From contig JAHBMJ010001186.1 of the NCBI GenBank assembly GCA_018398765.1, positions 1 to 34,393 on the forward strand: a DNA stretch of 34,393 nucleotides, read 5' to 3'. The notes under the pieces are model-generated. The model saw only the letters and a list, made by a program, of their open reading frames with translations. It was not told the origin of the DNA and made no database searches. Shown here piece after piece: positions 235-15,329 of the stretch. Numbering within the stretch: position 1 is the first letter of the stretch; every line of letters begins with the position of its first letter. Source of the stretch: Chromera velia (taxonomy: Eukaryota; Sar; Chromeraceae). Position numbers and translations under genes: made by a program.

Positions 235-498
235 GTTGCGTCGCTCACGGGTACCACATAGGCACTGGGTATGGCAGCGGATTCCGACGCATTCACTGGC
301 GGCCAAATCTGGCCAACTGCCAATGGTATTACGAGAACGACCCGGACTGCTTTTACTTCACCTGGTGGCGGCAGGCCTACGGCGGGACACCGGGGCCTGA
401 CGGATATGAGAGGGCATGTGAGCTGTATAGCGATCTCTCCTTGGGCTTGACTCTCTCCTCCGATCCTTGGAACACAATGTCGTCTCCTAAATATTGCT
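235..498 (+). CDS. Exon: PAN/Apple domain, type a (block A1)
   Basis: Phase-1 exon opening GT TGC after TTTTCAG and ending TAT TGC T before GTGAGT. It encodes a Cys-rich module with a C-H-G-Y start, the core NCQWYYENDPDCFYFTWW, a later CELY strand, and a closing PKYC. This pattern (Cys, W-Y, Cys, F-x-F/W-W, Cys, final Cys) is the PAN/Apple fold, which binds carbohydrate or protein. Its closest partner in the window is the exon at 8782-9039, which shares the NxCQ/ECQ-WY core and the late G/SDP segment. It is the first domain seen here, but probably not the first in the protein. Confidence 0.8.
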
Positions 499-953
499 GT
501 GAGTCATTTTGTGTTTGCAATCAGTGGACTGAATGAAGCGGGTTTGTTTTTACACACTGAATGGAGCAAGTCGTGCACACTCGTTTCTCCCATGATTAAA
601 ACTTAGAAGCGAAAGATGCGACGCGTTTCTTCAATTGTTGCTGCATCGTTGCTCGAAGCAGTCAGCCGATGGTTGCGCGTCATGAAGTAAGATCACACGA
701 ATCAGTTTTCAAGAGTCTTTCAACCAACTGGCTGGTTTTTTTTTTTCACTTGAGCAGGTAGCGAGCATGTCGCGTTTATGCACCCCTGTCTGCCCACTTC
801 TCTGCATGATCCGAGGTGTGCTGAAAGAATCTTCGGTGCCTGTCTTTCACCAGGATGAAAAATCAGTGTTCAGTTGACCTTTCCACCTTTTTTGTCTGTG
901 TGTTGTGTGGGGGGAGGACACTCGCTTGTGTTCGTACCGATGAACCAATGCAG

Positions 954-1163
954 CATGTTACGACGAGCAAACGACAATCACCGGAGATCTCCTCTCGACA
1001 ACAGGGTCCATGACTTCCGCCATTGAGTGCAACAATCTCTGTGCGAACACAGCGTCCTGCGAGTACTTCGCGTACGACAAGAGCACGCAAATTTGTTCTC
1101 TGCACACAAACAACACGGCCACTTCCACTGTCGCCGCATCTATCGCGGGTCCCGGACTATGCG
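954..1163 (+). CDS. Exon: PAN/Apple domain, type b (block A1)
   Basis: Phase 1-1 exon of 210 nt, the same length as the other type-b exons at 3629, 9469 and 12203. The translation starts CYDEQTTITGDLLSTTGS, has the core ECNNLCANTASCEYFAYD, then a C-x-L-H-x-x-N-T strand and a final GPGLC. The LSTTGS motif is shared only with the exon at 9469-9678, which marks that exon as its duplicate. The donor is GTCAGT. Confidence 0.8.
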
Positions 1164-1269
1164 GTCAGTTTTTGTGGAACTTTAAGCAAGACCCGCGCGT
1201 GTTTTTCTAAAATGACTCTTCAGCTTACGCGGCTGCACTTGTTTCGCCAGAGCGATTGAGCACTGCCCG

Positions 1270-1301
1270 CTTACCTGCCTGCCTGCCTGCCTGCCTGCCT
1301 A
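1270..1301. repeat. (CTGC)n tetranucleotide array in intron
   Basis: About seven CTGC units lie just upstream of the next EGF exon, inside the 175-bp intron 1164-1338. Confidence 0.9.
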
Positions 1302-1338
1302 CGCTTATTCAGTTGTATGATTGAAAGTCTGCTTGCAG

Positions 1339-1458
1339 ACAGGGATGAGTGCGCGCTGAACATAGACAACTGCGACCCCGGGGCCAACTGTATGAACACC
1401 ATTGGAAGCTTCTACTGCAACTGCACAATGGGGTACACAGCAACCACCGGGTGTGAAG
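1339..1458 (+). CDS. Exon: calcium-binding EGF-like domain (block A1)
   Basis: Phase 1-1 exon of 120 nt. With the G from the previous exon it begins D-R-D-E-C and continues with ALNIDNC, GANCMNTIGSFYCNC and a final GC. All six Cys and the C-x-N-x-x-x-S-F-x-C calcium-binding/hydroxylation signature are present. Its ALNI-D-C segment resembles the EGF at 11216. The intron that follows (1459-2094, about 640 bp) shows no gene. Confidence 0.88.
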
Positions 1459-2094
1459 GTCAGCGAAAATCTCTTAGCATGATAAGTTGAATGGCCCTCG
1501 CTATCCGTTCCAAGCTTGATCAACGTTGCAGTTTGATTAGTGGCGTCTCCTTCCTTTTTTGACGTGTGGCCAAGCTTTTAGAGTATGCATCAACAGGAAA
1601 GGATACCTGAGGACCGGCCGGAAGGGTGAGAGTGTGAGTTTATGATTTTGGTATCGCGTGAACAAAAGCCTGTGCGGTGTTGGTGCATGTTTCACTGCAA
1701 ATTGACGGAATGACTCAATTTCCGCCTCCCTTTGGCACGACCTGATTGTCTCTTTTTTTTTTTGTCTAGACAGACAGCCTGTTCCTTCACTGGCACGTAG
1801 TCGCTCTCTCGAATGGCCGAAGAGCAAAATTGATTTGGGGTCTTTTCGGGACTCATGTGTCCGTTCGTCCACAGACCACGTGCAAAGAGCGTTTAAGGAC
1901 GAATGCAGCAGAGTGCTCTAGCTCTGTTCGGGATCATGCCCCTTCTTGCGTGTGTCTCGTTCTCGTGGCGAGCCAACAAAGCTGTCGCGGGGGTTGTTGG
2001 AGGCGACCACAATGCACCCAGCTTCACTCGTTGTCCGTTCGATCCAGATCTCTGCACGTGTTTTTACCCGTGTAAATGATTTGTATGTACGCAG

Positions 2095-2241
2095 ATGAAT
2101 GCATCGGGAGGGTTCACGACTGCGACTACGGAGTGTCTTGTACGAATACCGTTGGGTCGTTCACCTGCGCATGCGACACCCACGAGGAGTTCGTCGATGT
2201 CTCTCCAGCGCTCGGGGTGCCAAACGGAACGTTCTGCCAAT
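2095..2241 (+). CDS. Exon: calcium-binding EGF-like domain (block A1)
   Basis: Acceptor GTACGCAG is followed by AT GAA TGC, so the domain starts directly at D-E-C, two residues shorter than the usual D-x-D-E-C. Six Cys are present, with VSCTNTVGSFTCAC in the middle and an NGTFC end. The donor is GTGAGG. The tail VPNGTFC resembles the end of the EGF at 14258, so this loop type recurs. The next intron (2242-2755) holds no recognisable gene. Confidence 0.86.
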
Positions 2242-2755
2242 GTGAGGGGGTGCATGGAAGGGTGACGCATGCATGCCCCACAGGTGGAGAAATTTTCTCT
2301 GCGAACGAAAGGAAGAGTTTATGTCAAATAGAATTTCTGCAAGGCTAGGGTCTCCAGTTGACTACCCAAATGTTTCTCTAACCCACTTGTGTGCGCGTTG
2401 GTAGTCCTTGGTTCCTAATTACGTCCCGCACCTGCCTGATGCCTGTGTGTGTGCTTGTCTTATGCTCTCCTTTGCTCTCCTCAAGATCGTGTTCGAAGCT
2501 GAAAAATCCCAGCCGGAAGCGTCTCTCTTTTGTGAACTTGTTTGCTCCTGCTGAATCTTATTTTTTTTTCCTGTGTTCCATGCTTTGCGTGTTGTTGAGC
2601 TCAAAGCGGGCTGCCCGCCTTTCCTTCGGTTCGTTCTTGAAGCTACCTGTGAGTGCGTACATGTCCCATGGCCAGTCGGTTTCCACTTTTTGATCTTTCT
2701 GCCCTCCTTCATAATATTCCTTCTTCACTTTCGTTTCGTGTCATCGATCTTGCAG

Positions 2756-3013
2756 CTTGCTTCGACCCTGGCGTCTACATTCCAGACGTTGCTGGCGCTC
2801 TTGTGGACTATGTTGGGCCCAATGATGTAGCGCCAACGCATCAAGAATGTCAAGCCAGGTGCACTGCAACCCCAGGGTGCTGGTACTTCACGTGGTGGGA
2901 CTACAACTATGGTGGGGCATGGAAGGGAAGGTGCCTCCTCCAGGAAGATAATCACTACAGTGAGCGACTGGCAGGGGTTCCGTGGAGGCACGTTGCTGGA
3001 GGAAAATTTTGTG
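2756..3013 (+). CDS. Exon: PAN/Apple domain, type a (block B1)
   Basis: Phase 1-1 exon. It begins CFDPGVYI, has the core ECQARCTATPGCWYFTWW, a RCLLQEDNHYSERL strand and a GGKFC end. The C-x-DPG start, the LQED motif and the ER segment are shared with the exon at 11581, its apparent duplicate. The downstream intron (3014-3628) contains a (CT)n run at about 3271-3302 and otherwise pyrimidine-rich sequence. Confidence 0.84.
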
Positions 3014-3267
3014 GTCAGTTTGTAAGCGTTTTTTCTTCTTTATGCGACTTTTGGGCCCTGATTACAATAACACCAAAGTCATTTATACAGAGTTTGAGCT
3101 TCTGACTGTTTTTCAATCTTTAAAATGAATTTTTTGCGACGGTGATGAAAAGTCAGGTTGCAAGGCAAAAATCGTATGGCACCCTATATTGATAGACATG
3201 TTTGTTTTTCCTTTTCCCAGCAGTCTCACGACAAGAAGACCGACCTGAAGCCATGCATCAAGTTTTT

Positions 3268-3305
<38 letters not shown>

Positions 3306-3628
3306 ATGCTATGTGCATCACTTCTCCGTTCTGGTCCTCCTTCCTTTGTGTGGTTCCCTCTTTCTCAGACTGTCAGTTCACTCACTTCTCGCATCTATCT
3401 TGATTTCTGAGCAGAACACCAAATTTTCGTTTTCCCCCGGCAGTTCATGCTCACTGTTGCTTTTTGGACAGAGACAGACCCCATGCAGCCCTTCTCACCG
3501 TGTGCTCGTTCAATCAAAAGCGTGTCAATTGCTGATAGAGACGCTGTGTCTCTGTGTGAGTTTCCGACTCAGTGCTGAATGAGTAAAGCATTTTGATGAT
3601 CCATATATCCAATCAAGTCCCGCTGCAG

Positions 3629-3838
3629 AATGCTACTTTGTGGGAAAGAAACTAACCGGGAACGTAATAGCCACCGACAACAGCGCAATCTCTGTCACGA
3701 AGTGTCAGAGGCAATGCCACATTGATGCAAATTGCAATTATTTCTCCTTCGACCAGTTGAACCACATCTGCACGCATCACAGCGCAAACAGCACAGTACT
3801 AAACGACCCGGGAAGCATTATGGGACCGTCGATCTGCG
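3629..3838 (+). CDS. Exon: PAN/Apple domain, type b (block B1)
   Basis: A 210-nt phase 1-1 exon. The translation opens ECYFVGKKLTGNVIA, with the core KCQRQCHIDANCNYFSFD, a CTHHSANST strand and a final GPSIC. The VGK-x-x-TG-x-VIA motif recurs only in the exon at 12203. The donor is GTCAGT. The following intron (3839-4237) has a short CTAT/CTGT run near 4070-4100. Confidence 0.84.
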
Positions 3839-4237
3839 GTCAGTACGTCCATGTGTTGGACTGTATCTATGAAAATCTGTTCCGTTGCTCAGTCGGTTTG
3901 TTGGATTCTCAAGACTAAAGCAGGGAGGGTCCATTCTCATTAATGGCATGGAGCTTCGGGGAAATGTGTGGCGTCTTCCCTGCCATTGATTCTGCAGGAT
4001 TCTTCTCTTCTGCGCTGGGCGTCATGCAAAACAATTCTCCAGCAACCCTGCACCTTCTCTTTCTATCGATCTCTCTCTCTATCTGTCTATCTATCTACAG
4101 CCTCTTTTATTTGAGGAAGTCTGTCCGCAGCCCTTTTGCGGCTATCCTTCTGATGTTAGACCATCACGTTTAGGTGCTTTACTTGCTTGGTGGTCCCCTT
4201 TGTGTAATCTGTTCAAGTTCTCTTACCATGCATGCAG

Positions 4238-4363
4238 AGCGCGACGAATGCAGTGAGAATCTCCACAACTGCGCAAATCTGGGTGGCAACTGTACAGACA
4301 CGCAGGCATCTTTCACGTGCGAGTGCATTCGGGGGTTCAATGGCACAGGGGTGGATTGCCCCG
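4238..4363 (+). CDS. Exon: calcium-binding EGF-like domain (block B1)
   Basis: Acceptor CATGCATGCAG; phase 1-1. The domain reads E-R-D-E-C, LHNC, GNCTDTQASFTCEC and a GVDCP end, with six Cys and a calcium-binding consensus. The closest partner is the EGF at 12688 (RDECS, FHNC). The donor is GTTAGT. Confidence 0.88.
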
Positions 4364-4752
4364 GTTAGTGCCGCTCGCTCATTCATGCAATGTGATCATG
4401 CAGCTACACGCTCCTTTCATTTGCAGCATCCCCAACGAAAAGGAGTCTGAGCACTTCTCACTATCTGTGAGGTATGGGGAGAGGGGAGAAAAGTTTGAGG
4501 AAAAACAAACAAATTGTTTCTCCATGCAGACAGCAGCTGCCAGGAGACTCAGAGGCCTCTTTGTTTCAATCCATCGTGCAGGAGATGCGCAGTCAGGCAG
4601 GCAGACGGATAGATAGACCAGGAAATGGAGAGGATCGGATTTTCGAAATGGTAATGAAATGCTCCGACGTCTACTACGTTAAAGCACAAAGGCCATTTTC
4701 TGGATTGTTTTTGCATACGCACCCTAGAATTTGTTCCGATTGCTCTTTGCAG

Positions 4753-4896
4753 ACAACGACGAGTGCTCTGACCCTGCGTTCCCCCACAACTGCGACGCCG
4801 TGGCGAACTGCAGAAACACCGTGGCAAGCTTTCTGTGCGCTTGCCCTGCCACGGGGTGGTACGACATGAGCAACAACACGGGCGTCAACTGCACAA
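4753..4896 (+). CDS. Exon: EGF-like domain, near-identical twin of 13351-13494
   Basis: A 144-nt phase 1-1 exon. The protein reads D-N-D-E-C, FPHNC, ANCRNTVASFLCACPATGW and an NNTGVNCT end. I count only 6 nucleotide differences from the 144-nt exon at 13351, three of them in the first five bases. Neighbouring exons of the duplicated block are much more diverged. The donor is followed by GTCAGTCAGT, the seed of the longer GTCA array after the twin exon. Confidence 0.9.
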
Positions 4897-5262
4897 GTCA
4901 GTCAGTCCATCAATCAAGTGGCTCCTGCGTGAGAAGGCAAATAGCCGTGTATGAGAAAAACGTCCGTGATTGCCATGTGTACAGGTCTCTCATTATTCAG
5001 CGATTTCATTCTATTTGCAGTCAACCGCAGAGCTCGAACGCATTAGAAAGAAGCCATGCAGACCAATATATTTGATTCAACGCATGCAGAGGGAGCAAAC
5101 ATGCATGGTTCCGTGTTTCGGAAGACTCCATTGTGCACAATTAAGGGTTCGAAAGCATTCACGATATCCGTGGGCAGTTTTGAGAAATAAAGTTGCGCTC
5201 TACGATCACAGTCTTGGTTCTATCCCTTCTCGCTGCTTGGCTGCATGGGCTGCTGCACGCAG

Positions 5263-5418
5263 ATATCGACGAATGCACTGACCGGGACCCCATGTTCAGC
5301 CACGACTGCCACATGAACGCGACCTGTACGGACAACGACGGGAGCTTCGCGTGTGCCTGCCACGCAGGATTTGCAGATACGAGCTCGCCAGGAAGGGGGA
5401 CCGGTACGAACTGCACAG
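5263..5418 (+). CDS. Exon: calcium-binding EGF-like domain (block B1)
   Basis: Phase 1-1 exon that begins D-I-D-E-C-T-D, with FSHDC, ATCTDNDGSFACACHAGF and an NCT end. The DPMFSHDC segment corresponds to NPLFSNDC in the exon at 13876, in line with the block duplication. It ends the first PAN/EGF super-block. The next intron (5419-5934, 516 bp) is pyrimidine-rich towards its 3' end. Confidence 0.88.
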
Positions 5419-5934
5419 GTCAATCACCCCACCAGCTAGGGTGAACGACGTTTGTTTACATGTCCCGTCCCATCGCACTTTCATTTCCTTATGCGTTTGA
5501 CGGTACATACGCTTGCAAACAAAAAGAAATCAACACTCAGAGATGCAAGAAAACAAGTGCTGCTCTCAGAACAAGTGGAAGATGCCCTTTATTTTTCTTG
5601 AGATTTTTTAGCCATGCGCAAACAGGCAGCGCACCGTCAGATATGGACACCGTGTTTCAGGCAGGACACACATTGATTGCACAAGACTCTGCTCAAAAAT
5701 GCACAATATCCTTCGTCGTGATGGGCCTGGAGTAGAATGAACGCCCTTTTGATCTTGCTTTGTCCTCCGCCACACCCTTTTATTTTTTTCTCTTTTTCGT
5801 GTCTTCCCTTTTTTTCTGTTTGTCTTCCCTCGGAGAAACCTCGTTCCTCTTTAACGCTGTCAGCCCTTACGAGTGTGGAAGAATTTGCCTCCCTGTTTGA
5901 TATGTCAAGCGCGTGCGACTGCCTGTCTGCGCAG

Positions 5935-6159
5935 CCGTGTCTTGTGACGAGGTCAACGACCCCGATCCGAACGCGCTGACTGCCGAGGTGATCCGCACGG
6001 ACTCTTCGCAGACAGGGGTCACGAGCGACAGCGCCACATTCACCTACAGCTGCAACAATGGGTACTAGCTTGTGGGCTCTCCCACAACAACTTTCACCTG
6101 CACTGGGATCGCACTGGGAAGTTCTGCTTGGCAGGGGGGGACTTTACCCACATGCACAG
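5935..6159 (+). pseudogene. Sushi (CCP) exon 1 of 4 with an in-frame TAG stop
   Basis: This 225-nt phase 1-1 exon matches the next two sushi exons codon for codon (VSCDEVNDPDPNALTAEV, YSCNNGY, TCTGIALG, AWQGGT, TCT). At 6066-6068 the codon after CNNGY is TAG, where the paralogous exons have CAG, CAC and CAG. The exon has the same length as its neighbours, so no frameshift explains this; a C-to-T change does. If included, translation stops here. If skipped, the phase is kept, so the rest of the protein can still be made. A sequencing error or readthrough is also possible. Confidence 0.8.
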
Positions 6160-6481
6160 GTGGGTTCCTTCCTGAGTTGTGAAGGAGATTCAAGAGCTGC
6201 ATAGAGTACGTTAGAGGGGAGTTGGAACGTAGGGTGAATGTTTCGTATTTCAAACAGTAAAATGAAATCAGTTGACTCTCTCTCACTTAATTCAGATTTA
6301 TTTTCAGAAAGAATCTTTCTCAGTTGCCCAGCTAGTGTGCGCCTCTCACAGTTTGCACTTCCATCCCTTGAAGTTTCAGTGTACATCTCATCTCCTCGAT
6401 GCTGTTCTCGCTGCTGCTCTTGTGGTGATACTTGCAACGCAAAGTGACTTCCCTTTCCATTTTCCTGCGTATCAACCGCAG

Positions 6482-6706
6482 CGGTGTCGTGCAATCAGGC
6501 AACAGATCCCGATCCAAATGCCCTCTCTGCCGAGGTGATCCGGACAGACTCTTCGCAGACAGGAAACACCACCGACACGGCCACTTTCACTTACAGCTGT
6601 AACAATGGGTACCAGCTTGTGGGCTCTTCCACAACGACATTCACCTGCACCGGGACTGCCCTAGGAGCTTCCGCTTGGCAGGGGGGAACCGTTCCCGCAT
6701 GCACAG
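6482..6706 (+). CDS. Exon: sushi (CCP) domain 2 of 4
   Basis: A 225-nt phase 1-1 exon beginning AVSCNQATDPDPN. It has the four sushi cysteines, YSCNNGYQLVG, the TCTGTALGASAW tract with the conserved Trp, and a closing ACT. It is close in sequence to exons 5935 and 6997, indicating recent tandem duplication. Sushi modules typically mediate protein binding at cell surfaces. The donor is GTGGGT. Confidence 0.9.
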
Positions 6707-6932
6707 GTGGGTGGGTCTCTTCCCAAATTGGTTTGTGCTGCTTGCCCATGGAATGTATCAGGAGCATGCAAACCGACCAAGGAAAGTCGATCATGCGCAC
6801 TCAGAGCGCTCTCTGCCCGGCCTTGTGGGTCAATAGTCCGACACAGCTAGGTGCTTGTGCCGCTGCACAGTATACATGCCTTGTACTTGTTTTTGCGTTT
6901 GAATCGCCGGCTGAATCAATTTCAGCAATATT

Positions 6933-6934
6933 GG

Positions 6935-6970
<36 letters not shown>
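6933..6970. repeat. (GT)n microsatellite upstream of sushi exon 3
   Basis: Nearly pure GT repeats in the intron 6707-6996, ending about 25 bp before the acceptor GTGCAG. Confidence 0.95.
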
Positions 6971-6972
<2 letters not shown>

Positions 6973-6996
6973 TGCGTTACGCTGCGGTGCGTGCAG

Positions 6997-7221
6997 CCGT
7001 GTCGTGTCATGAAGTCAACGACCCCGACCCGAACGCGCTGACTGCCGAGGTAGTTCGGACAGACAACTCGCAAACAGGGACAACGACGGACCTTGCGACT
7101 TTCACCTACAGCTGCAACAACGGGTACCACCTTGTGGGCTCTCCCGCAACGAACTTCACTTGCACTGGGACTGCACTAGGAGCTTCCGCTTGGCAGGGGG
7201 GGACAGTGCCGACATGCACAG
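6997..7221 (+). CDS. Exon: sushi (CCP) domain 3 of 4
   Basis: A 225-nt phase 1-1 exon with VSCHEVNDPDPNALTAEV, YSCNNGYHLVGS, TCTGTALGASAW and a final TCT. It shares long runs with exon 5935 and keeps CAC (His) where that exon has TAG. The intron after it (7222-7649, 428 bp) contains a short (GAAT)n run near 7307-7330. Confidence 0.9.
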
Positions 7222-7649
7222 GTCTGTTCCTACGATCACAGCAATCACTGCATTGGTTCGGTTGTGATCCTTGTTTAGGGGAGAAAGAGGACCTGTACTT
7301 GAAAATGAGTGAATGAATGAATGAATGAATGTATGCGCTTGTTGCTTCCCGAGATCCTGCATAAGACAGACCCCCTGGTCAACGTAGCTTCGAAACCACA
7401 TTTGATTATTTGATGCACTACAGCGGCAACTGATGAAGCAGAAAAAATAGCTTTGTCACCCTGCTTGTCTGTCTACCCTCTCGTCCTCGAGCTACATGCG
7501 CCGAGTGGAGTCTCACTCTGATTTGAGTTTTTTTGGAATGCATGCGCGGAAGTTGAAACGATCCACATTGAGAACAGCATAGCACCACTGCTTGGTACGC
7601 ATGTGCCTTCATGAATGCATGCCTCTTTTCCCTCCCTGCTTTTTCGCAG

Positions 7650-7871
7650 CTGTCTCCTGCAATGAGGCATCAGACCCACAGCCCAACACCCTGGGGGCCC
7701 AAGTAATCAGAACAGACTCCGGACAGGCAGGAACAACGACGCAAAGCACCAACTTTGCATTCAGCTGCAACAACGGGTACCAGTTGGACAGCTCTGGGAG
7801 GGTCTCGTTTACTTGCACGGGCACTGCTTACTCATCGTGTGAGTGGCAGGGTACTCCCCCAACCTGCTCAG
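7650..7871 (+). CDS. Exon: sushi (CCP) domain 4 of 4
   Basis: A 222-nt phase 1-1 exon, the most diverged of the four: VSCNEASDPQPNTLGAQV, FSCNNGYQLDSSG, TCTGTAYSSCEW and TCS. An extra Cys in the SSCEW segment gives five cysteines rather than four. The donor GTGCAT is weak. The 371-bp intron after it ends in a GT run. Confidence 0.88.
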
Positions 7872-8202
7872 GTGCATGAGTCAGAAAGAAACGGAGTGTG
7901 TTTCTCAAAATGAAGGCATTGTGATTCTTGCAAAGCGTCTCGTACTGTCTTCTGATGGAATGCCGGACAGAATCATTTGGAAACTCCGATAGCAATTCGG
8001 ACTCGGCATTTCTTGTCCATGGATGCATGGACGATCCAGCGTTCGAATGTCCATTTGCAGAGAGCCATACTGCTACATTGTCAAACAGGTCCTCAAGTGC
8101 TTCCAGGTGTGTGTTTCCGCGTGTATGAAGGCGCATACCCGCAAAAACACTCGAACTTGTGAAATTCAAGTGAATCCCGAATGTGTACGTGACTGAGTGA
8201 GC

Positions 8203-8233
8203 ATGTGTGTGTGTGTGTGTGTGTGTATGTGTG
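8203..8233. repeat. (GT)n microsatellite before an EGF acceptor
   Basis: A GT run in the intron 7872-8242, just ahead of the acceptor GCGTGCAG. Confidence 0.93.
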
Positions 8234-8242
8234 GGCGTGCAG

Positions 8243-8383
8243 ACATCAATGAGTGCAGTGGCGGCACGCACGACTGCGCTTACGGAGCGTCGTGTACGAA
8301 TACAGCAAGCTCTTTCACATGCGCCTGCAACAAATCTCCAGGGCTGAGGACGTTGGAGAATCTCAATGGCACCGCGTGTATCG
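8243..8383 (+). CDS. Exon: calcium-binding EGF-like domain between sushi block and block A2
   Basis: Phase 1-1 exon that reads D-I-N-E-C-S, THDC, ASCTNTASSFTCAC and an NGTACI end. It occupies the place after block B1 plus sushi that the EGF at 14258 occupies after block B2. The sushi run may therefore have been inserted between block B1 and this EGF. The donor is GTGGGT. Confidence 0.88.
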
Positions 8384-8781
8384 GTGGGTGGGTTGATTGA
8401 ACAACCCCAGACACACATTGATTGTTGAACGCTTTCTGATTTGAAAGTGCTTCAAAAATGCCTGATATGGTTTGGGTGGGTGTATGCGTTTCTTGGCAAG
8501 AGACTGAATGAGGCAAAAATGGTACGGGTCCCTTTGATAAAGAAAATCCAAGAGATTGCCCGTATCCGAATAAAAGTGTTCCATAGTTACATGAGCTTCT
8601 CTTCTTGCTTTTTAAATATGAGGATCCCCCTGCGGCACGAATTAACATGTGCACGAAACCACTCAGCTGCCCGTACAAGTCGTTCTCCCTCATACAACTT
8701 TCTCTTTTTTACACGAAAAGCCCACAAAAAGAAAGACAAAGAGATCTGTTTTTTTTTTTTGTTCTCTTTATGACATCGCAG

Positions 8782-9039
8782 GATGCATTGAACATGGACG
8801 ATACATCCACCCCGCGAATCCTGGGGATGCCTTCGATTACTTCGACACGGTGGCGGAGTGCCAACAGTGGTACGACAAGGACACAAGCTGTAATTTCTTC
8901 TCGTATGCATCAGCCGACTGGGGAGGTGGGGCGAATCCAGCTTGGAACAAGCGGTGCACTCTCCAATACAGTGGCACTCCGACCGGTACCGGCCTGTCTG
9001 GTGACCCATACGGTCGCATGTCGGGCCCCAAATTTTGCG
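8782..9039 (+). CDS. Exon: PAN/Apple domain, type a (block A2)
   Basis: Acceptor CATCGCAG after a long T tract; phase 1-1. It begins GCIEHGRYI, has the core ECQQWYDKDTSCNFFSYA, a RCTLQYSGT strand, an SGDPYGRMSG segment and a PKFC end. It pairs best with the exon at 235. The donor is GTGAGT. The intron 9040-9468 shows no gene. Confidence 0.85.
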
Positions 9040-9468
9040 GTGAGTCCGTGCATGTTATCTCAAGCCCCCCGATAGTCTTTCACGCTAGCTCCGTTTTCAT
9101 CCCCACGAAGGTCTCTTTGTGGAATTCTTCTGTCTGACACGTGTGTTGATCCCCGATGCGCATCCTTTCGATTTGATAATTTCTTATCTTAATTGTCTTA
9201 TTGCATTGGTCCCAGATCTTTCTTTCGCATGCGAATTGCAAGTGGGCCGCTCCCTTCTTTGCCCGGCCCTGAATGAATCGAATAAGAGAATATCCATCTG
9301 CAATTTCACATCGCCGACTCAGTGACTCAGGTTTCTGGTCTTTTGCGAACGGCCCAGATTGATCCTTCGGTTTTGGTGCGGTGAATGCGGTGCGTGCACT
9401 TCCACCAGACTGAATCACTGATCGAGTGATTGAACGAACATCTTGACTGCCAATTTCCTTAATTGCAG

Positions 9469-9678
9469 AGTGCTACGATATCGGTCGCAGCATCAGTGAG
9501 AACGTCCTCAGCACCACGGGGTCCGTCGACACGGCTGTGGAGTGCAACTGGAACTGCCACAACGCGGCCACCTGCGAGTTCTTCTCCTACGATGTGGCCT
9601 CTCTCTCCTGCACTCTCCACACTGTGAACACCAGCACCAGCGCACAAGATTCTGTCGTTTCGGGACCCAAAGATTGCA
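9469..9678 (+). CDS. Exon: PAN/Apple domain, type b (block A2)
   Basis: A 210-nt phase 1-1 exon that reads ECYDIGRSISENVLSTTGS, then ECNWNCHNAATCEFFSYD, CTLHTVNTST and a GPKDC end. The LSTTGS tract links it to the exon at 954. The following 615-bp intron (9679-10293) holds no recognisable gene. Confidence 0.86.
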
Positions 9679-10293
9679 GTGAGTGTCCATGAATTCTTTC
9701 CGTAGGGCAATGTATGAATGGTAAATTGCTGTCAATAAGTGCTTCCAAGGAGTGTGGCATACATGCTGAGAACTTAATGCATCACAACGTCCATCTGTGG
9801 AGTGCATGTCTCGACAGTCGCTTCCGTTGCGGCAGTGCGTAGGGTTGTCTTTGGGTTGCCTCTTTCCCATTTCGTGTTCATGCACCTACGCATGAGGTTT
9901 TATGGGTGGGGCAGAGGACTAATCATTTGTGGACATGGAACAGAAGGGGCGACAATGCAGAAGAGGCATTGACACAAAGCATCAAACCGCTTTCGGAATA
10001 CATCACGATGTCCTCCAGGCATTTCATGTGCTGATTGTATACCTCCACTGCCGAATGGAATTGAGACAGACACAAAAACGAACGAGAAAATCTCGGGTTC
10101 TATTGCCAGCAGGACAACTCAGCGAAGCACAGGAAACATCTTCGAGTGATGGTTCAGACAGACCAGACAAAAAGTTTGCAGAGCCCTTGGTTGCCTGCAG
10201 GAATCTTTCACGAATTTGGGTATGGTAGATGAGCAAAAATTGAGGGGCTCTTACGTTCATCCTGTGATTTTGATCCTCTCTTAACGCACGCAG

Positions 10294-10431
10294 ACAAGGA
10301 TGAGTGCACATCTGGTGCTCACAACTGTGACGCAAATGCGACCTGCACGGACGTCATTCACAGCTTCACGTGCGCATGCAACGACGGTTTCCAAGACGAC
10401 AGTGCCGGCACTGATGCAACGTCATGTGCAG
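10294..10431 (+). CDS. Exon: calcium-binding EGF-like domain (block A2)
   Basis: Phase 1-1 exon that reads N-K-D-E-C-T, AHNC, ATCTDVIHSFTCACNDGF and a TSCA end. Six Cys are present with a calcium-binding start. The donor GTCAGC begins the 784-bp intron that carries the 58-bp acceptor ladder. Confidence 0.87.
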
Positions 10432-10732
10432 GTCAGCCGATCGAGTAAGGTCTTTGAGGTTCTGTGTCTCGACTTCAGAAATTCTCTGCGCCAACAGGCG
10501 TTTGGGTCGGCGGTCTTCAGGTGCTGGAATCGCACTTGCCATCATGTAGAACAAAGTTGCAGCGTATTGCGATAGTTCAAATCGGAACAGAAAGCTCAGT
10601 GTCACCAAGGATGCCTGTCTGTCTGAAAGTCCATGTCTCCAAAACTGTGTGGCTGTGGGATAATTGGAAACATTATGCTTTCTTTTGTGTCAATGACATG
10701 CCAGATACCAGTGCTGTGCAAATTCAATCGTC

Positions 10733-11260
10733 TTCTTCTACATGCATGAGTGCAGATGTGGATGAGTATGCCCTGAACATTCATGATTGCTCCTTCTACA
10801 TGCATGAGTGCAGATGTGGATGAGTGTGCCCTGAACATTCATGATTGCTCCTTCTACATGCATGAGTGCAGATGTGGATGAGTATGCCCTGAACATTCAT
10901 GATTGCTCCTTCTACATGCATGAGTGCAGATGTGGATGAGTGTGCCCTGAACACTCATGATTGCTCCTTCTACATGCATGAGTGCAGATGTGGATGAGTG
11001 TGCCCTGAACATTCATGATTGCTCCTTCTACATGCATGAGTGCAGATGTGGATGAGTGTGCCCTGAACATTCATGATTGCTCCTTCTACATGCATGAGTG
11101 CAGATGTGGATGAGTGTGCCCTGAACATTCATGATTGCTCCTTCTACATGCATGAGTGCAGATGTGGATGAGTGTGCCCTGAACATTCATGATTGCTCCT
11201 TCTACATGCATGCAGATGTGGATGAGTGTGCCCTGAACATTCATGATTGCTCCTACGGGG
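10733..11260 (+). repeat. Tandem 58-bp repeats, each with a splice acceptor plus EGF exon start
   Basis: Nine acceptor copies (first exonic base at 10756, 10814, 10872, 10930, 10988, 11046, 11104, 11162, 11216) are spaced by 58 bp; the last gap is 54 bp. Each unit carries GAGTGCAG or ATGCAG followed by codons for DVDECALNIHDCS (Y for C in units 1 and 3), then CTTCTACATGCATG, which restarts the unit. 58 is not a multiple of 3. Reading from any of the first seven acceptors hits TGA in the next unit. Acceptor 11162 stays in frame with 11216 because of the 54-bp spacing. Confidence 0.95.
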
Positions 11261-11350
11261 CTGAGTGCATCAACTCCATCGGCAGCTTCTCCTGCTCTTG
11301 CTTGGCCAACTACACAGACGCATCGACCCCCCCGGGAACTTTGTGCATCG
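11216..11350 (+). CDS. Exon: calcium-binding EGF-like domain (block A2), source of the 58-bp repeats
   Basis: With the last acceptor of the ladder the exon reads D-V-D-E-C, ALNIHDC, AECINSIGSFSCSC and a final LCI; phase 1-1, donor GTAAGC. Its first 13 codons are what is copied in the upstream repeats. Use of the acceptor before 11162 would add 18 residues (a second DVDECALNIHDCS followed by FYMHA) in frame, giving an EGF with extra cysteines. Confidence 0.88.
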
Positions 11351-11580
11351 GTAAGCCGGGCTCTTGTTTCTTTACTTAATTCTTTTTTTAGATGCATGTG
11401 TGCGTGGGCTCTTTTGTTTGCTTGATTTTTTTGTTGAATGCATATGTGCGTGGGTGCGTGTGTGCATGTGCGTGAAGGGGTAGTGTATTCCCACGCATTG
11501 AGAGACATTTGCCTGCACACAAAATTGTGAGAAGCCTGACCCTTTAATGTATGAATGCTTCTGCCCTCTTTCTTGTGAAG

Positions 11581-11820
11581 GCTGCTGGGACCCTGGTATG
11601 GTCATAGACGACTGGAGCAACCCGCTCGCGTCCTTCACCACTACCGACGCCAATGGATGTCAGGCAGCGTGTGCAGCAAATGCGGCTTGCTACTTTTGGA
11701 CCTGGTTCGACAACGCGGGTGGCGATTGCCGACTGCAAGAAGACCACGACAACCCCGAACGCTACACGTCGGGGACTGTACAGGACAGGTGGAGACTTGT
11801 CAGTGGACCGAAATTCTGCG
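11581..11820 (+). CDS. Exon: PAN/Apple domain, type a (block B2)
   Basis: Acceptor CTTGTGAAG, one of the few not ending in CAG. It begins GCWDPGMVI, with the core GCQAACAANAACYFWTWF, CRLQEDHDNPERY and a GPKFC end. It is 18 nt shorter than its partner at 2756, with a shortened loop after the W-F core. Phase 1-1, donor GTCAGT. The intron 11821-12202 holds no gene. Confidence 0.84.
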
Positions 11821-12202
11821 GTCAGTGACGCTGTCCCCGCTGGGCTCCTCCATGGGCCAGACAAAGAGGGCAAACTCATCCCTGCGTGAGGAAGGGACAG
11901 GCGTATCTCTCTGTGTGTCTGCAAATGGTGTGAGCGGCGTGTATTGCTCACAGTGGCGCATATTTTGCATTCTTCTGTGACTCTGGCCTTGTTTGCGTGC
12001 GTCTCTCCATGTCTCTCTTCATCTTGTTCCGTCTGCTCTTTACAAAATGACACCGTCCGGGTGTCGCAATGAGATCTCAGATTCGATTGCGATCCAGATT
12101 GACTTTCAAATACTCTGACTACCGCTAGATGCCTCGAAACACGCTGATTGCGATGACATTTGGTGATCTGACGCATGATTATGATTTCTATTCGCCCTGC
12201 AG

Positions 12203-12412
12203 AATGCTACGAAGTGGGAAAGAGGGTAACAGGCGACGTCATTGCGGCGTTTCCCACAAGCCTCTCTGCCACGAAGTGCCAACAGAGGTGCGATGATGAG
12301 CCCCTCTGCAATTTCTTTTCCTTCAGTCACGCGACAGGAAACTGTACCCTCCACAGCGGCAACACCACAGTCATCAGCGACGCAGCCAGCATCACCGCTG
12401 CCGAAATATGCT
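12203..12412 (+). CDS. Exon: PAN/Apple domain, type b (block B2)
   Basis: A 210-nt phase 1-1 exon that reads ECYEVGKRVTGDVIA, KCQQRCDDEPLCNFFSFS, CTLHSGNTT and an AAEIC end. The VGK-x-VTG-x-VIA and TKCQ tracts match the exon at 3629. The donor is GTCAGT. Confidence 0.86.
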
Positions 12413-12687
12413 GTCAGTTGCCTGCTTTTTTTATTGCTGCTGTGCCTCTGGATGTTGGTAATCACTTTGTCTGGCTTGTCTAAGCCTGTCAATCTTTGCC
12501 CTTCTGAGTTCTCTCACGTTTTTGTGTGCCAAAAATTCCTCATGAATGGAGAGTTTGTAGGACCTCATAAGTAGCATTGAAAAGGTTTTGAAACTTTTGA
12601 TTTGTACCTTCACGCTAGTCTAACGAGTGCAAACGATGACTTGAACAACCTGAGTAAGTGTGGGAACTTTGGTCTGCATGCTTTCAG

Positions 12688-12810
12688 TACGAGACGAGTG
12701 CTCCCGAGGATTCCACAACTGCAATCCCGAGGCTTCATGCAACAACACCGACGGGTCCTTCACGTATGCCTGCAATGCCGGGTGGGACGGGGACGGACTC
12801 ACTTGCATCG
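12688..12810 (+). CDS. Exon: EGF-like domain with one cysteine lost (block B2)
   Basis: Acceptor CTTTCAG; phase 1-1. It reads L-R-D-E-C-S, FHNC, ASCNNTDGSFTYACNAGW and a LTCI end. Where all other EGF exons have F-x-C-x-C, this one has F-T-Y-A-C: codon TAT replaces the expected TGT or TGC. Five cysteines remain, leaving one unpaired. It pairs with the EGF at 4238. The donor GTCGGT merges directly into a microsatellite. Confidence 0.82.
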
Positions 12811-12882
12811 GTCGGTCGGTTGGTTCGTTGGTTGGTCGGTTGGTCGGTTGGTTGGTCGGTTGGTCGGTTGGTTGGTTGGTTA
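12811..12882. repeat. (GGTC/GGTT)n array starting at a splice donor
   Basis: Seventeen or so tetranucleotides of the form GGTC, GGTT or CGTT begin exactly at the intron donor. The rest of the 540-bp intron shows no gene. Confidence 0.9.
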
Positions 12883-13350
12883 CACAGCTAGGCAGAGTCC
12901 TCTTTCTATTCTGGTCGTATTTCTCAGCTGTAGTTTTCGATGCAATGCGACTTGGGTCTCGCATATTTCACGCCTTTTTCTCGTAAATGATCTTCTGTCG
13001 ATCGGCCGTGAAAGGTTTGCAATGGAGCGAGCTCTTCCTCATCAGTTTTGCGCTTTTTTGATCCGAACCGTGCATTTTTGCCTGCCTGCGGGGATTTCGG
13101 TTGTGTTGTATTAGCGCATGAACTGACGAGACTGACAGAAACTGCAGCCCGCCTTCATTCACCCTTCTGCTATTGATTCTTGAGGAGGCCTCGTACTTTC
13201 TGGTCGCTTTTCGTCAGTTGTTTGATTTTGTCAGGCGTCGGTCCCGTTCTACGATTATGCAGGGTTCTGTGTTGAGGCATTTTTCACGTGTGCACGATAT
13301 CGGATGAAATAAAATACCTGTATATGCATGCGTGTGCCGGGTGAGAGCAG

Positions 13351-13494
13351 ATGTCGACGAGTGCTCTGATCCTGCGTTCCCCCACAACTGCGACGCCGTG
13401 GCGAACTGCACCAACACCGTGGCAAGCTTTCTGTGCGCTTGCCCTGCCACGGGGTGGTACGACATGAGCAACAACACGGGCGTCAACTGCACAA
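13351..13494 (+). CDS. Exon: EGF-like domain, near-identical twin of 4753-4896
   Basis: A 144-nt phase 1-1 exon that reads D-V-D-E-C, FPHNC, ANCTNTVASFLCACPATGW and an NNTGVNCT end. The only differences from the 4753 exon are at the N-terminus, one GAC/GAT and AGA/ACC in one codon. The donor is embedded in a GTCA array. Confidence 0.9.
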
Positions 13495-13520
13495 GTCAGT
13501 CAGTCAGTCAGTCAGTCAAT
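13495..13520. repeat. (GTCA)n array starting at a splice donor
   Basis: About six GTCA units start at the donor GTCAGT. The corresponding intron at 4897 has two units and then diverges. Confidence 0.92.
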
Positions 13521-13875
13521 CGTAAGCCATGCACTCGATTGCCTTCCTGGCCTGTCGGGTGCCCAATTCTTCTCTGAGGACCTCCTCGCAATTCTCTTTT
13601 TGGCGCTCTTTCGTGTCCGTTTTGGTGCGTTTGCGCTGTCTTCAGTAAGATCCTCCTTGGAGAGCACACACAATCCGTCTTTCTTTCCCTTCTGTCTGTA
13701 TGCCTTCCTGTCTGCTTGCCTTTGTGCTATCGGTCCTTTGTGCTATTCGGTCAGTCGTTTTGTGGGCATATGTGTGAATCGCTTGCCTGACCAGTCCTCC
13801 CCTATGGCTGTCTGTCTGTCTTCGGGTCGTTTGCTATAACTGCAGATATTAACGAATGCATTGCTGTACCTGTAG

Positions 13876-14022
13876 ATATCAACGAATGCACCGATCCGAA
13901 CCCCCTTTTCAGCAACGACTGTCATGCAGACGCCGACTGTTCGGACAACAACGGGAGCTTCACATGCGCTTGTCGGTTGGGATTCACAGAGAGTGCTCCA
14001 ATTAATGGGACCAATTGCTCAG
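13876..14022 (+). CDS. Exon: calcium-binding EGF-like domain with duplicated acceptor (block B2)
   Basis: From acceptor CTGTAG at 13875 the exon reads D-I-N-E-C-T-D, FSNDC, ADCSDNNGSFTCACRLGF and an NCS end; phase 1-1. A second acceptor (TGCAG, exon from 13846) lies exactly 30 bp upstream and is followed by DINECIAVPV, in frame. The start of the exon is thus duplicated, and two protein forms differing by ten residues are possible. The TGCAG acceptor matches the rest of the gene better than TGTAG. Confidence 0.85.
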
Positions 14023-14218
14023 GTGAGCTGCTTTCAAAACAAAGCACAGAAAAAGGAGCAAAAACATGAGACTGAGTAGAGTGCAGCTTCGCTTCTGTAT
14101 GGCAGCGAAAAACGCGCTCGTGGCAGGACATGCAAGAGAAGAAACACAGAGAAGTCAACTCACTCTCTCTGCTAATGCCACTTTTCGAGTGATTGATAAT
14201 CTTCACAGAATAAATTTT

Positions 14219-14246
14219 GATGCATGCATGCATGCATGCATGCATA
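14219..14246. repeat. (TGCA)n array next to an acceptor
   Basis: Six or more TGCA units precede TACCTGCGTGCAG, the acceptor of the next EGF exon. Confidence 0.92.
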
Positions 14247-14257
14247 CCTGCGTGCAG

Positions 14258-14401
14258 ACATCACTGAATGCACCGATCTGGTAGACGACTGCGACTTGCG
14301 GGCAGCATGCACAAACACACACGGAAGTTTCGTGTGCGAGTGCAATCTAGGATACGAAGACGTACCAGGCCTTGGCGCACCCAACGGAACTGTTTGCAGA
14401 G
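14258..14401 (+). CDS. Exon: calcium-binding EGF-like domain
   Basis: Phase 1-1 exon that reads D-I-T-E-C-T, VDDC, AACTNTHGSFVCECNLGY and an NGTVCR end. It is the first EGF after block B2. The donor GTCATT is weak. The 366-bp intron that follows shows no gene. Confidence 0.88.
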
Positions 14402-14767
14402 GTCATTTGGGCTAGACTCTCGGTCTTTGTTCAGTCTCCAAGTTTTCAAGCACACTCAGTCTGCAAATAATTCAAAGTAAACTGTAAAATGACAACGTGA
14501 AGCTTGCAGTGAGTGAAAAATGATGGGGGTGTGCTTCAAGAAGGTCTTCACGCTGTTTTGAAATTTCTTCCTCTCCGTCTTAGAATGTGGGTGTGTTCTC
14601 TGTCTCGAGCCTAGAGCCTCGCAGTCATATGCTCCGGCCTCACAATTCTGTCTTCTCCGACTGACGGAAACTTCCGTGTCTCATCTCGGCCGTATGCGTA
14701 GTCTTCCAAAGAAACAGCATTCATCTGCCATGCATTCACCGTTGCATCTATGCATCCATGCATGCAG

Positions 14768-14896
14768 ACATGGACGAGTGCACGCTCGAAATTGACACTT
14801 GTTCGGGGAATGCGACGTGCACCAACAACTTCGGGAGCTTTACTTGCCCCTGCAATCTAGGTTTTAGCTCCTCCGATAGCGGTGTCACATGCACAG
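14768..14896 (+). CDS. Exon: calcium-binding EGF-like domain
   Basis: Acceptor CATGCATGCAG; phase 1-1. It reads D-M-D-E-C-T, IDTC, ATCTNNFGSFTCPCNLGF and a VTCT end, with six Cys. The donor is GTACGT. Confidence 0.9.
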
Positions 14897-15227
14897 GTAC
14901 GTGTGTCGACTTATACCAATCAGACAATATTTTGTTCCCCAAATCTTCATTCCATTCAAACTGTCTTTTGTTCTTTGACAATATCTTTCTGTTCCTTTTC
15001 TGCTCCCTCAGAGTGACTCTGTTCTCCTTTCTATCACAGTCGCTCTCCCCTCGGGTGCTTCTCAATGCCAACATCTGATCTCTTTTTCCTCCCTTTCCTT
15101 TTGGAATGCGAAGAGACGTGAGCGGGAAGAAAGTGACATCGCCGAGTTTCCCTCCGCTCCATCGCTATTCCCAGTTTTTTAATTTGCTTCCCTCTATGTG
15201 CCCCCCGCATGACTTTGCTTTTCGCAG

Positions 15228-15329
15228 ACATCGACGAATGTTCAAGCAGTAGCCTACACAACTGCCACACGAATGCCACGTGTGCAAACACTGTTCCGTC
15301 GTTCACTTGCACTTGCAACGCAGGCTTCG
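15228..15329 (+). CDS. Exon: first part of an EGF-like domain
   Basis: Phase 1-1 exon of 102 nt that reads [28 protein letters not shown] and stops before the sixth Cys at donor GTGAGT. The missing end is supplied by the micro-exon at 15695. Confidence 0.88.

Follow-up and report, generated by a model that had tools for sequence, protein, structure and literature searches.

Zhuo et al. are said to have described, in PNAS in 2007, human introns that arose from tandem arrays, the units of which each carry splice sites and so give many alternative sites. At the locus reported here, unlike in those arrays, the repeat straddles the border of an apparently older phase-1 intron beside an EGF exon, and no new intron is created. 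In Drosophila, according to the summary account of Lehmann et al. 2010 (PMC2891723), a tandem duplication was compensated by intron formation. As in that case, a frame-harming local duplication appears to be neutralised here when a duplicated splice site keeps the extra copy intronic; in the Drosophila case as outlined there, however, a new intron formed in an exon from a proto-splice site, whereas here an existing acceptor seems to have been copied many times while the intron grew. The locus also resembles tandem acceptors of the NAGNAG type, as outlined in PMC2279118 and PMC1449888, in that several acceptors would compete at one intron end, but its AGs lie 58 and 54 nt apart from copy to copy rather than a few nucleotides, it has nine sites, and every copy is preceded by upstream signals of its own. 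Like the AG exclusion zone presented in the outline of Gooding et al. 2006 (PMC1431707), AG is depleted before the acceptor in the EGF introns of this genome. Unlike simple first-AG scanning as sketched in that paper, the signals in the array restart in each unit, so that the unit in use cannot be predicted from scanning alone.

Introners, on the descriptions given in PMC9860276 and PMC7789003, are comparable in that a short palindromic element lies between duplicated splice sites elsewhere in this genome (L058, L068 and L070). In contrast to introners, which repeat as introns at many places, the array unit occurs only at this locus among the matches listed and the array is without such an element; moreover, the 28-64 bp repeats that flank the element in this genome exceed both the 3-9 bp target duplications given in PMC9860276 and the 3-5 nt direct repeats given in PMC7789003. 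Direct repeats at splice borders have likewise been interpreted as remnants of insertions or of break repair in the main account of PMC11782384, although the repeats described there are 4-30 bp long and common to both ends of one intron, whereas those here stand at one end, head to tail. A literature search restricted to the titles and abstract openings of open-licence papers gave, among the entries listed, no description of acceptor ladders of this kind.

The locus lies in the window, by which we mean the whole stretch of 34,393 nt that was analysed, contig C1185 of a 177.8-Mb assembly. The spliced exons mark the DNA as eukaryotic, and the host is probably a photosynthetic unicellular relative of malaria parasites, whose lineage would lie near the Apicomplexa. 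Chromera velia is the probable species, on the basis of 58 light-harvesting gene matches, from a family that also gave matches in a cyanobacterial control, of 11 alveolin matches, likewise obtained in a bacterial control, and of size, GC and the literature; among the best 60 of 660 and the best 60 of 537 matches to light-harvesting proteins of solved structure, there was no near-identical chain. The original prediction, made from this DNA, was of a ladder of nine acceptors produced by tandem duplication of the 5' end of an exon together with its 3' splice site, and this is what we find (Table 1). The array has a Tandem Repeats Finder score of 991, the top among 46 rows for the window, and contains nine TGCAG/ATGTGGATGAG sites (the slash marks the intron/exon border), the last intron bases being 10755, 10813, 10871, 10929, 10987, 11045, 11103, 11161 and 11215. 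The spacing from acceptor to acceptor is 58 nt seven times and then 54 nt once. With head-to-tail units in the range of about 10-100 bp and high identity between them, the array is a minisatellite (VNTR) that multiplies a splice acceptor, and it is one of twelve acceptor duplications that we read in the genome.

Table 1. Coordinates of the array and of associated features in the window
Feature	Position	Strand	Details
Tandem array	10735..11254	+	58-bp unit x 9.0, 98% matches (Tandem Repeats Finder)
Copies 1-7	10756..11161	+	First exon bases 10756, 10814, 10872, 10930, 10988, 11046, 11104; each leads to TGA
Copy 8	11162..11215	+	54 nt, open, in frame; if used, an insert of 18 residues, two of them cysteines
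Last acceptor, ATGCATGCAG	11206..11215	+	GAGT of copies 1-8 missing; 43 nt to the nearest upstream AG, against 5 nt in copies 1-8
Exon 17, upstream EGF exon	10294..10431	+	Phase 1-1, donor GTCAGC; hand-made model and Pfam EGF_CA on joined exons
Intron 17, to last acceptor	10432..11215	+	784 nt; first array acceptor after 324 nt
Exon 18, EGF exon	11216..11350	+	135 nt, phase 1-1, donor GTAAGC; EGF_CA E 2.9e-12
Second acceptor-spanning duplication, same gene	13831..13890	+	30 bp x 2, 86%; CTGCAG/ATATTAACGAATGC and CTGTAG/ATATCAACGAATGC; in frame, +10 residues

The array unit is composed of a branch-like TTCAT, a pyrimidine-rich stretch, an ATGAG-TGCAG acceptor and the first 37-38 nt of the exon; after the pyrimidine-rich stretch, the acceptor region reads ATGCATG(AGTG)CAG. 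Each copy includes the TGCAG acceptor and the first 13 codons of the EGF exon, as had been proposed. In the two copies tested, a branch-like YTNAY precedes acceptor 8 by 34 nt and acceptor 9 by 30 nt; the corresponding position holds identical or one-base-variant sequence in copies 2-7 and unique intron sequence in copy 1. Within the exon heads, copies 1 and 3 have TAT where TGT is found elsewhere (Tyr for Cys), and copy 4 has ACT where the remaining copies have ATT. When a 97-nt array query was run against the 177.8-Mb genome, at least eight overlapping matches were returned, all of them at the array locus among the matches listed. Calling the copies acceptors or decoys follows from homology and reading frame. 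The array RNA does not form a notable hairpin (MFE -188.6 kcal/mol, z -1.46), 10 of 100 shuffles being equally stable. A function for the UGCAUG present in each unit was considered and rejected, since TGCATG is abundant throughout the window and resembles the acceptor context favoured in this genome. The window has 121 occurrences of TGCATG where 34 are expected; 19 of the 121 fall within the array, and the rest lie partly in ATGC microsatellites and acceptors.

Reading frames were followed from each acceptor after joining to the G of exon 17. As anticipated, all of the first seven acceptors (7/7) lead to a TGA in the next unit, while the final spacing of 54 bp leaves acceptor 8 with an open frame that would add the residues DVDECALNIHDCSFYMHA; positions 11162 and 11216, put forward earlier, correspond to the base at which the exon begins in copies 8 and 9, respectively. 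A plain EGF exon is obtained only from acceptor 9, and the exon would measure 135 nt via this copy, as opposed to 189, 247 and more via the other copies. Exon 18 matches EGF_CA (Pfam PF07645) with 47.0 bits against a cut-off of 27. The host gene, for which 26 exons spanning 235 to 15329 were modelled by hand, combines PAN/apple, EGF and Sushi exons, as identified by Pfam in six peptides that cover portions of it; the general account of PMC4501334 remarks that SUSHI and EGF proteins are expanded in chromerids. The length of every modelled exon (26/26) is divisible by 3, so that skipping or re-splicing could be tolerated in frame, and 25 of the 26 are stop-free in the phase-1 frame. A Sushi-like exon, exon 10 (5935-6159), has an in-frame TAG at 6066-6068; with its length divisible by 3, this exon could be skipped in frame. 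The locus does not conform to intron gain by tandem duplication, since other EGF exons start at the same domain point and in the same phase in the absence of an array, as does exon 3 at 1339, behind a 175-nt intron. These paralogous EGF exons of the gene suggest that intron 17 is older than the array.

To survey such duplications, the whole genome was searched with a pattern consisting of AG followed by an EGF start (D-x-D/N-E-C). This gave 377 + 314 matches, compared with 12 + 11 for the reversed pattern. The matches listed cover 100 of the 691 places and, for four sub-patterns, 100 of 190, 100 of 107, 67 of 67 and 100 of 292. Matches less than 200 bp apart were taken as a cluster. Thirteen clusters were found among the matches listed, all of which were read, and 12 of them are duplications of an acceptor together with an exon head. 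Among the matches listed, these 12 have 11, 9, 4 and 3 acceptors, then 2 in each of eight clusters; two lie in the window, namely the array and the duplication at 13831-13890. The sub-pattern that was covered in full (67 of 67; reversed control 5 + 8) yielded three clusters among 64 independent places. The longest ladder seen, in C3347 (L065:760-1420; G000:C3347:37600-39700), has eleven acceptors (TGCAG/ATNTTGACGAGTG, one TGTAG, one AGCAG), with T-runs and GT repeats between the copies and one EGF exon behind them. Further ladders have four acceptors (C1414, L071), two copies of which no longer match the pattern, and three acceptors (C44, L055). An open six-cysteine EGF-like exon follows the last acceptor in 11 of the 12 clusters, the exception being L068. 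The thirteenth cluster, C1963 (L066; G000:C1963:21500-23200), was dropped as a degenerate GATGTGGATGAGTG-rich repeat that lacks both a preceding TGCAG and a following EGF exon. Experiments on built constructs have addressed which of several near-identical sites is selected in splicing. The clusters of 2, 3, 4, 9 and 11 acceptors provide a natural series, with similar local sequence and in one genome, in which the effect of position can be tested, that is, whether a site is chosen for its position relative to the donor upstream or to the exon downstream.

Which of the nine acceptors is used was addressed through site strength and local context. An acceptor matrix was derived from 105 single acceptors, for which the median of 12.7 is a score on the training sequences themselves. 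Copies 1-8 score 13.5 and copy 9 scores 13.7; matrix strength does not set copy 9 apart. The array copies are thus as strong as other acceptors (13.5 against the median of 12.7), with the nine copies representing one clonal repeat. In the other 11 clusters the last acceptor is the strongest in none, scoring below at least one upstream copy in eight and tied in three; examples are L058 (0.7 for the last acceptor, 11.7 upstream) and L070 (2.1 and 10.2). In 20 of 103 ordinary EGF introns, the score of the expected acceptor is equalled or exceeded by that of an AG lying 10-300 nt upstream. The consensus TGCAG is strong at the EGF acceptors of this genome, with T at -5 in 113, G at -4 in 117 and C at -3 in 119 of 120 sites (window and L047-L062, array copies included).

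The EGF introns of this genome have an AG-poor zone before the acceptor. The nearest upstream AG lies at a median distance of 40 nt and within 10 nt in 7 of 100 introns, whereas at other TGCAG sites the median is 16 nt and 315 of 979 have an AG that close; an AG within 6 nt upstream was found at 4 of 100 single acceptors. The AG-free stretch of 5 nt in copies 1-8 is atypical against the median of 40 nt, while that of 43 nt in copy 9 is typical. In copies 1-8, the AG located 5 nt before the acceptor forms a close acceptor pair with it, but out of frame. The AG-free stretch is the sole local feature that we found in favour of copy 9, and it represents a single event. Recognition of exons as units would favour the last copy by exon size. 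We infer that productive splicing proceeds via the last acceptor (11215/11216), because this acceptor alone has a complete, normal-sized EGF exon next to it and an AG-free stretch of the usual kind before it. A minus-5 AG was also considered as a general mark of unused copies, and this rule fails elsewhere: of the 11 further clusters, two (L049 and L068) have their longest AG-free stretch at the last copy, and in L058 the AG is nearer in the last copy (5 vs 9).

The recurrence of acceptor duplications points to an unusual local-duplication process. A first test, on acceptors with a called donor (71 of 120), counted 24-mers that recurred within 250 bp, and found 8 of 71 at acceptors against 379 of 16932 in the background. 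Two of these eight came from the array, two from a whole-exon repeat in L054, one from L056 (offset 247) and the other three from L049, L055 and L058. With shifted 24-mers the counts were 3 of 70 (-12,+12) and 5 of 71 (exon head), and donors gave 2 of 71, both from the whole-exon repeat. A second test examined a 24-mer across each of 108 independent acceptors for recurrence within 200 bp, at 17 loci (the window and 16 stretches from the first 100 listed places). At two mismatches or fewer, 6 of the 108 acceptors recurred, compared with 233 of 9782 background 24-mers (2.4%, p 0.045); the corresponding numbers were 6 and 251 at three mismatches (p 0.060) and 7 and 258 at four (p 0.025). One of the six recurring acceptors, L054 at 4551, has its copy downstream rather than upstream. 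When the window array is left out, 5 of 107 acceptors recur (p 0.113); the excess of duplication at acceptors is weak, and is not significant without the locus of discovery. Duplications that span donors are present too (L056 and L071). In the sampled DNA, sites of many kinds show frequent local duplication, and the array fits such a genome. A donor-side counterpart of the acceptor ladder is seen at L056:5590-5830, with three copies of an exon tail and donor around a palindromic element.

A short palindromic element (TTTCATACAGAATTC...GAATTCTGTATGAAA, with variants) is found between two acceptor copies in L058, L068 and L070, and partly in L067. Its 20-bp end, GAATTCTGTATGAAARTAAA, has 537 exact matches in the genome, whereas the reversed control has none. 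Nine of the ten element places examined lie between direct repeats of 28-64 bp (L047, L050, L053, L054, L056, L058, L059, L068, L070 and L071), although the repeat in L059 consists in part of element-like sequence and that in L050 is a weak match (26 bp, score 11). Among the ten, seven places lie outside acceptor pairs, and six of these seven have such repeats, compared with 44 of 1402 random points, or 54 if low-complexity repeats are counted. Several of the listed element matches are regularly spaced, 69-103 bp apart (C90, C201, C335 and C416). The element core has no match in the window, and a link between the element and the window array is hypothetical.

Overall, the locus is probably the product of a tandem duplication across the border of intron 17 with the EGF exon that was expanded to about nine copies, with the last acceptor in use and the array passive. 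A short tandem duplication would have taken in the pyrimidine-rich stretch, the acceptor and 13 codons at this border, and would later have been enlarged to about nine copies by slippage or unequal exchange; slippage had been suggested as the source from the start, and either process is plausible. Each copy would then bring a near-complete 3' splice module, giving nine almost equal acceptors in the pre-mRNA. Since the duplicated stretch holds such a module, the extra copies would remain inside the intron when splicing occurs at the last one. Acceptors 1-7, if used, would lead to an early stop, and acceptor 8 to an 18-residue insert. The array is probably young and neutral. Most likely, it is neutral or slightly costly rather than a regulator, and a visible instance of the local duplications, tens of bases long, in which this genome is rich. 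Microhomology was considered as the origin and set aside: the junction between copies has only 2 nt common to the exon and intron sources, an overlap that does not demonstrate a homology-driven origin.

Other explanations were weighed against this passive expansion. The array could instead be a device that regulates output, in which acceptors 1-7 divert transcripts to decay, the copy number sets the level of protein and acceptor 8 makes a longer isoform. That seven of the eight upstream acceptors lead to a stop while one is in frame is consistent with this proposal, as are the scores of the upstream copies, which resemble those of the single acceptors in the matrix training set, and the presence of ladders with differing copy number at other EGF exons. 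Selection left no sign that we could find, however, and copies 1 and 3 lack a cysteine codon; fillers and spacings vary among the other clusters, like duplications occur at other acceptors, some donors and introns, and all eight upstream copies have the AG at minus 5 that is rare in the genome. We consider regulation by the array to be very unlikely. It is quite unlikely, too, that exon 18 is skipped or the gene decaying, with the array lying where splicing no longer matters: the symmetry of all 26 exons would allow exon 18 to be dropped in frame, and exon 10 has its TAG, but exon 18 encodes an intact EGF_CA domain between a consensus-like acceptor and donor, 25 of the 26 modelled exons are without a stop, and open EGF-like exons with six cysteines lie behind the duplicated acceptors in 11 of the 12 clusters.

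The number of copies might, alternatively, be a product of assembly, if the filling of gaps with short reads lengthened or shortened the repeat. The longest exact repeat in the array is 200 bp (10955-11154 against +58), so reads shorter than 200 bp cannot count the copies. Should the genome be the Chromera velia assembly of 2015, velvet at k 71 was used together with gap filling, as stated in the assembly description of PMC4501334, and the 200-bp repeat is longer than this k-mer; N is found in 3 of the 16 sampled stretches (181, 337 and 1) and may mark gaps. The assembled copy number may be unreliable in this respect. Against an artefact, distinct units are needed to account for the TAT of copies 1 and 3, the ACT of copy 4 and the 4-bp difference of copy 9, the window is without any N, and arrays with other units are found elsewhere in the genome; of the explanations considered, this one has the lowest probability. 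A broader proposal concerns an active process in the genome by which the tens of bases surrounding a break or insertion are duplicated, the palindromic element or a simple repeat often serving as filler. Copies that span a 3' splice site would put the insert in the intron and the gene would survive, the ladders being the visible survivors and the element a mobile sequence that is hidden by duplicating the host splice site. We regard this as unlikely.

In the second acceptor-spanning duplication of the same gene, at 13831-13890, the upstream acceptor scores 10.0 and the last (13875) scores 3.4. As the upstream acceptor is the stronger, the exon may start at 13846 instead of 13876. Elsewhere in the gene, the EGF exons at 4753-4896 and 13351-13494 encode near-identical protein (NDECSDPAFPHNC... 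and VDECSDPAFPHNC...) and both donors start with GTCAGTCAGTC, which suggests a recent duplication of a part of the gene.
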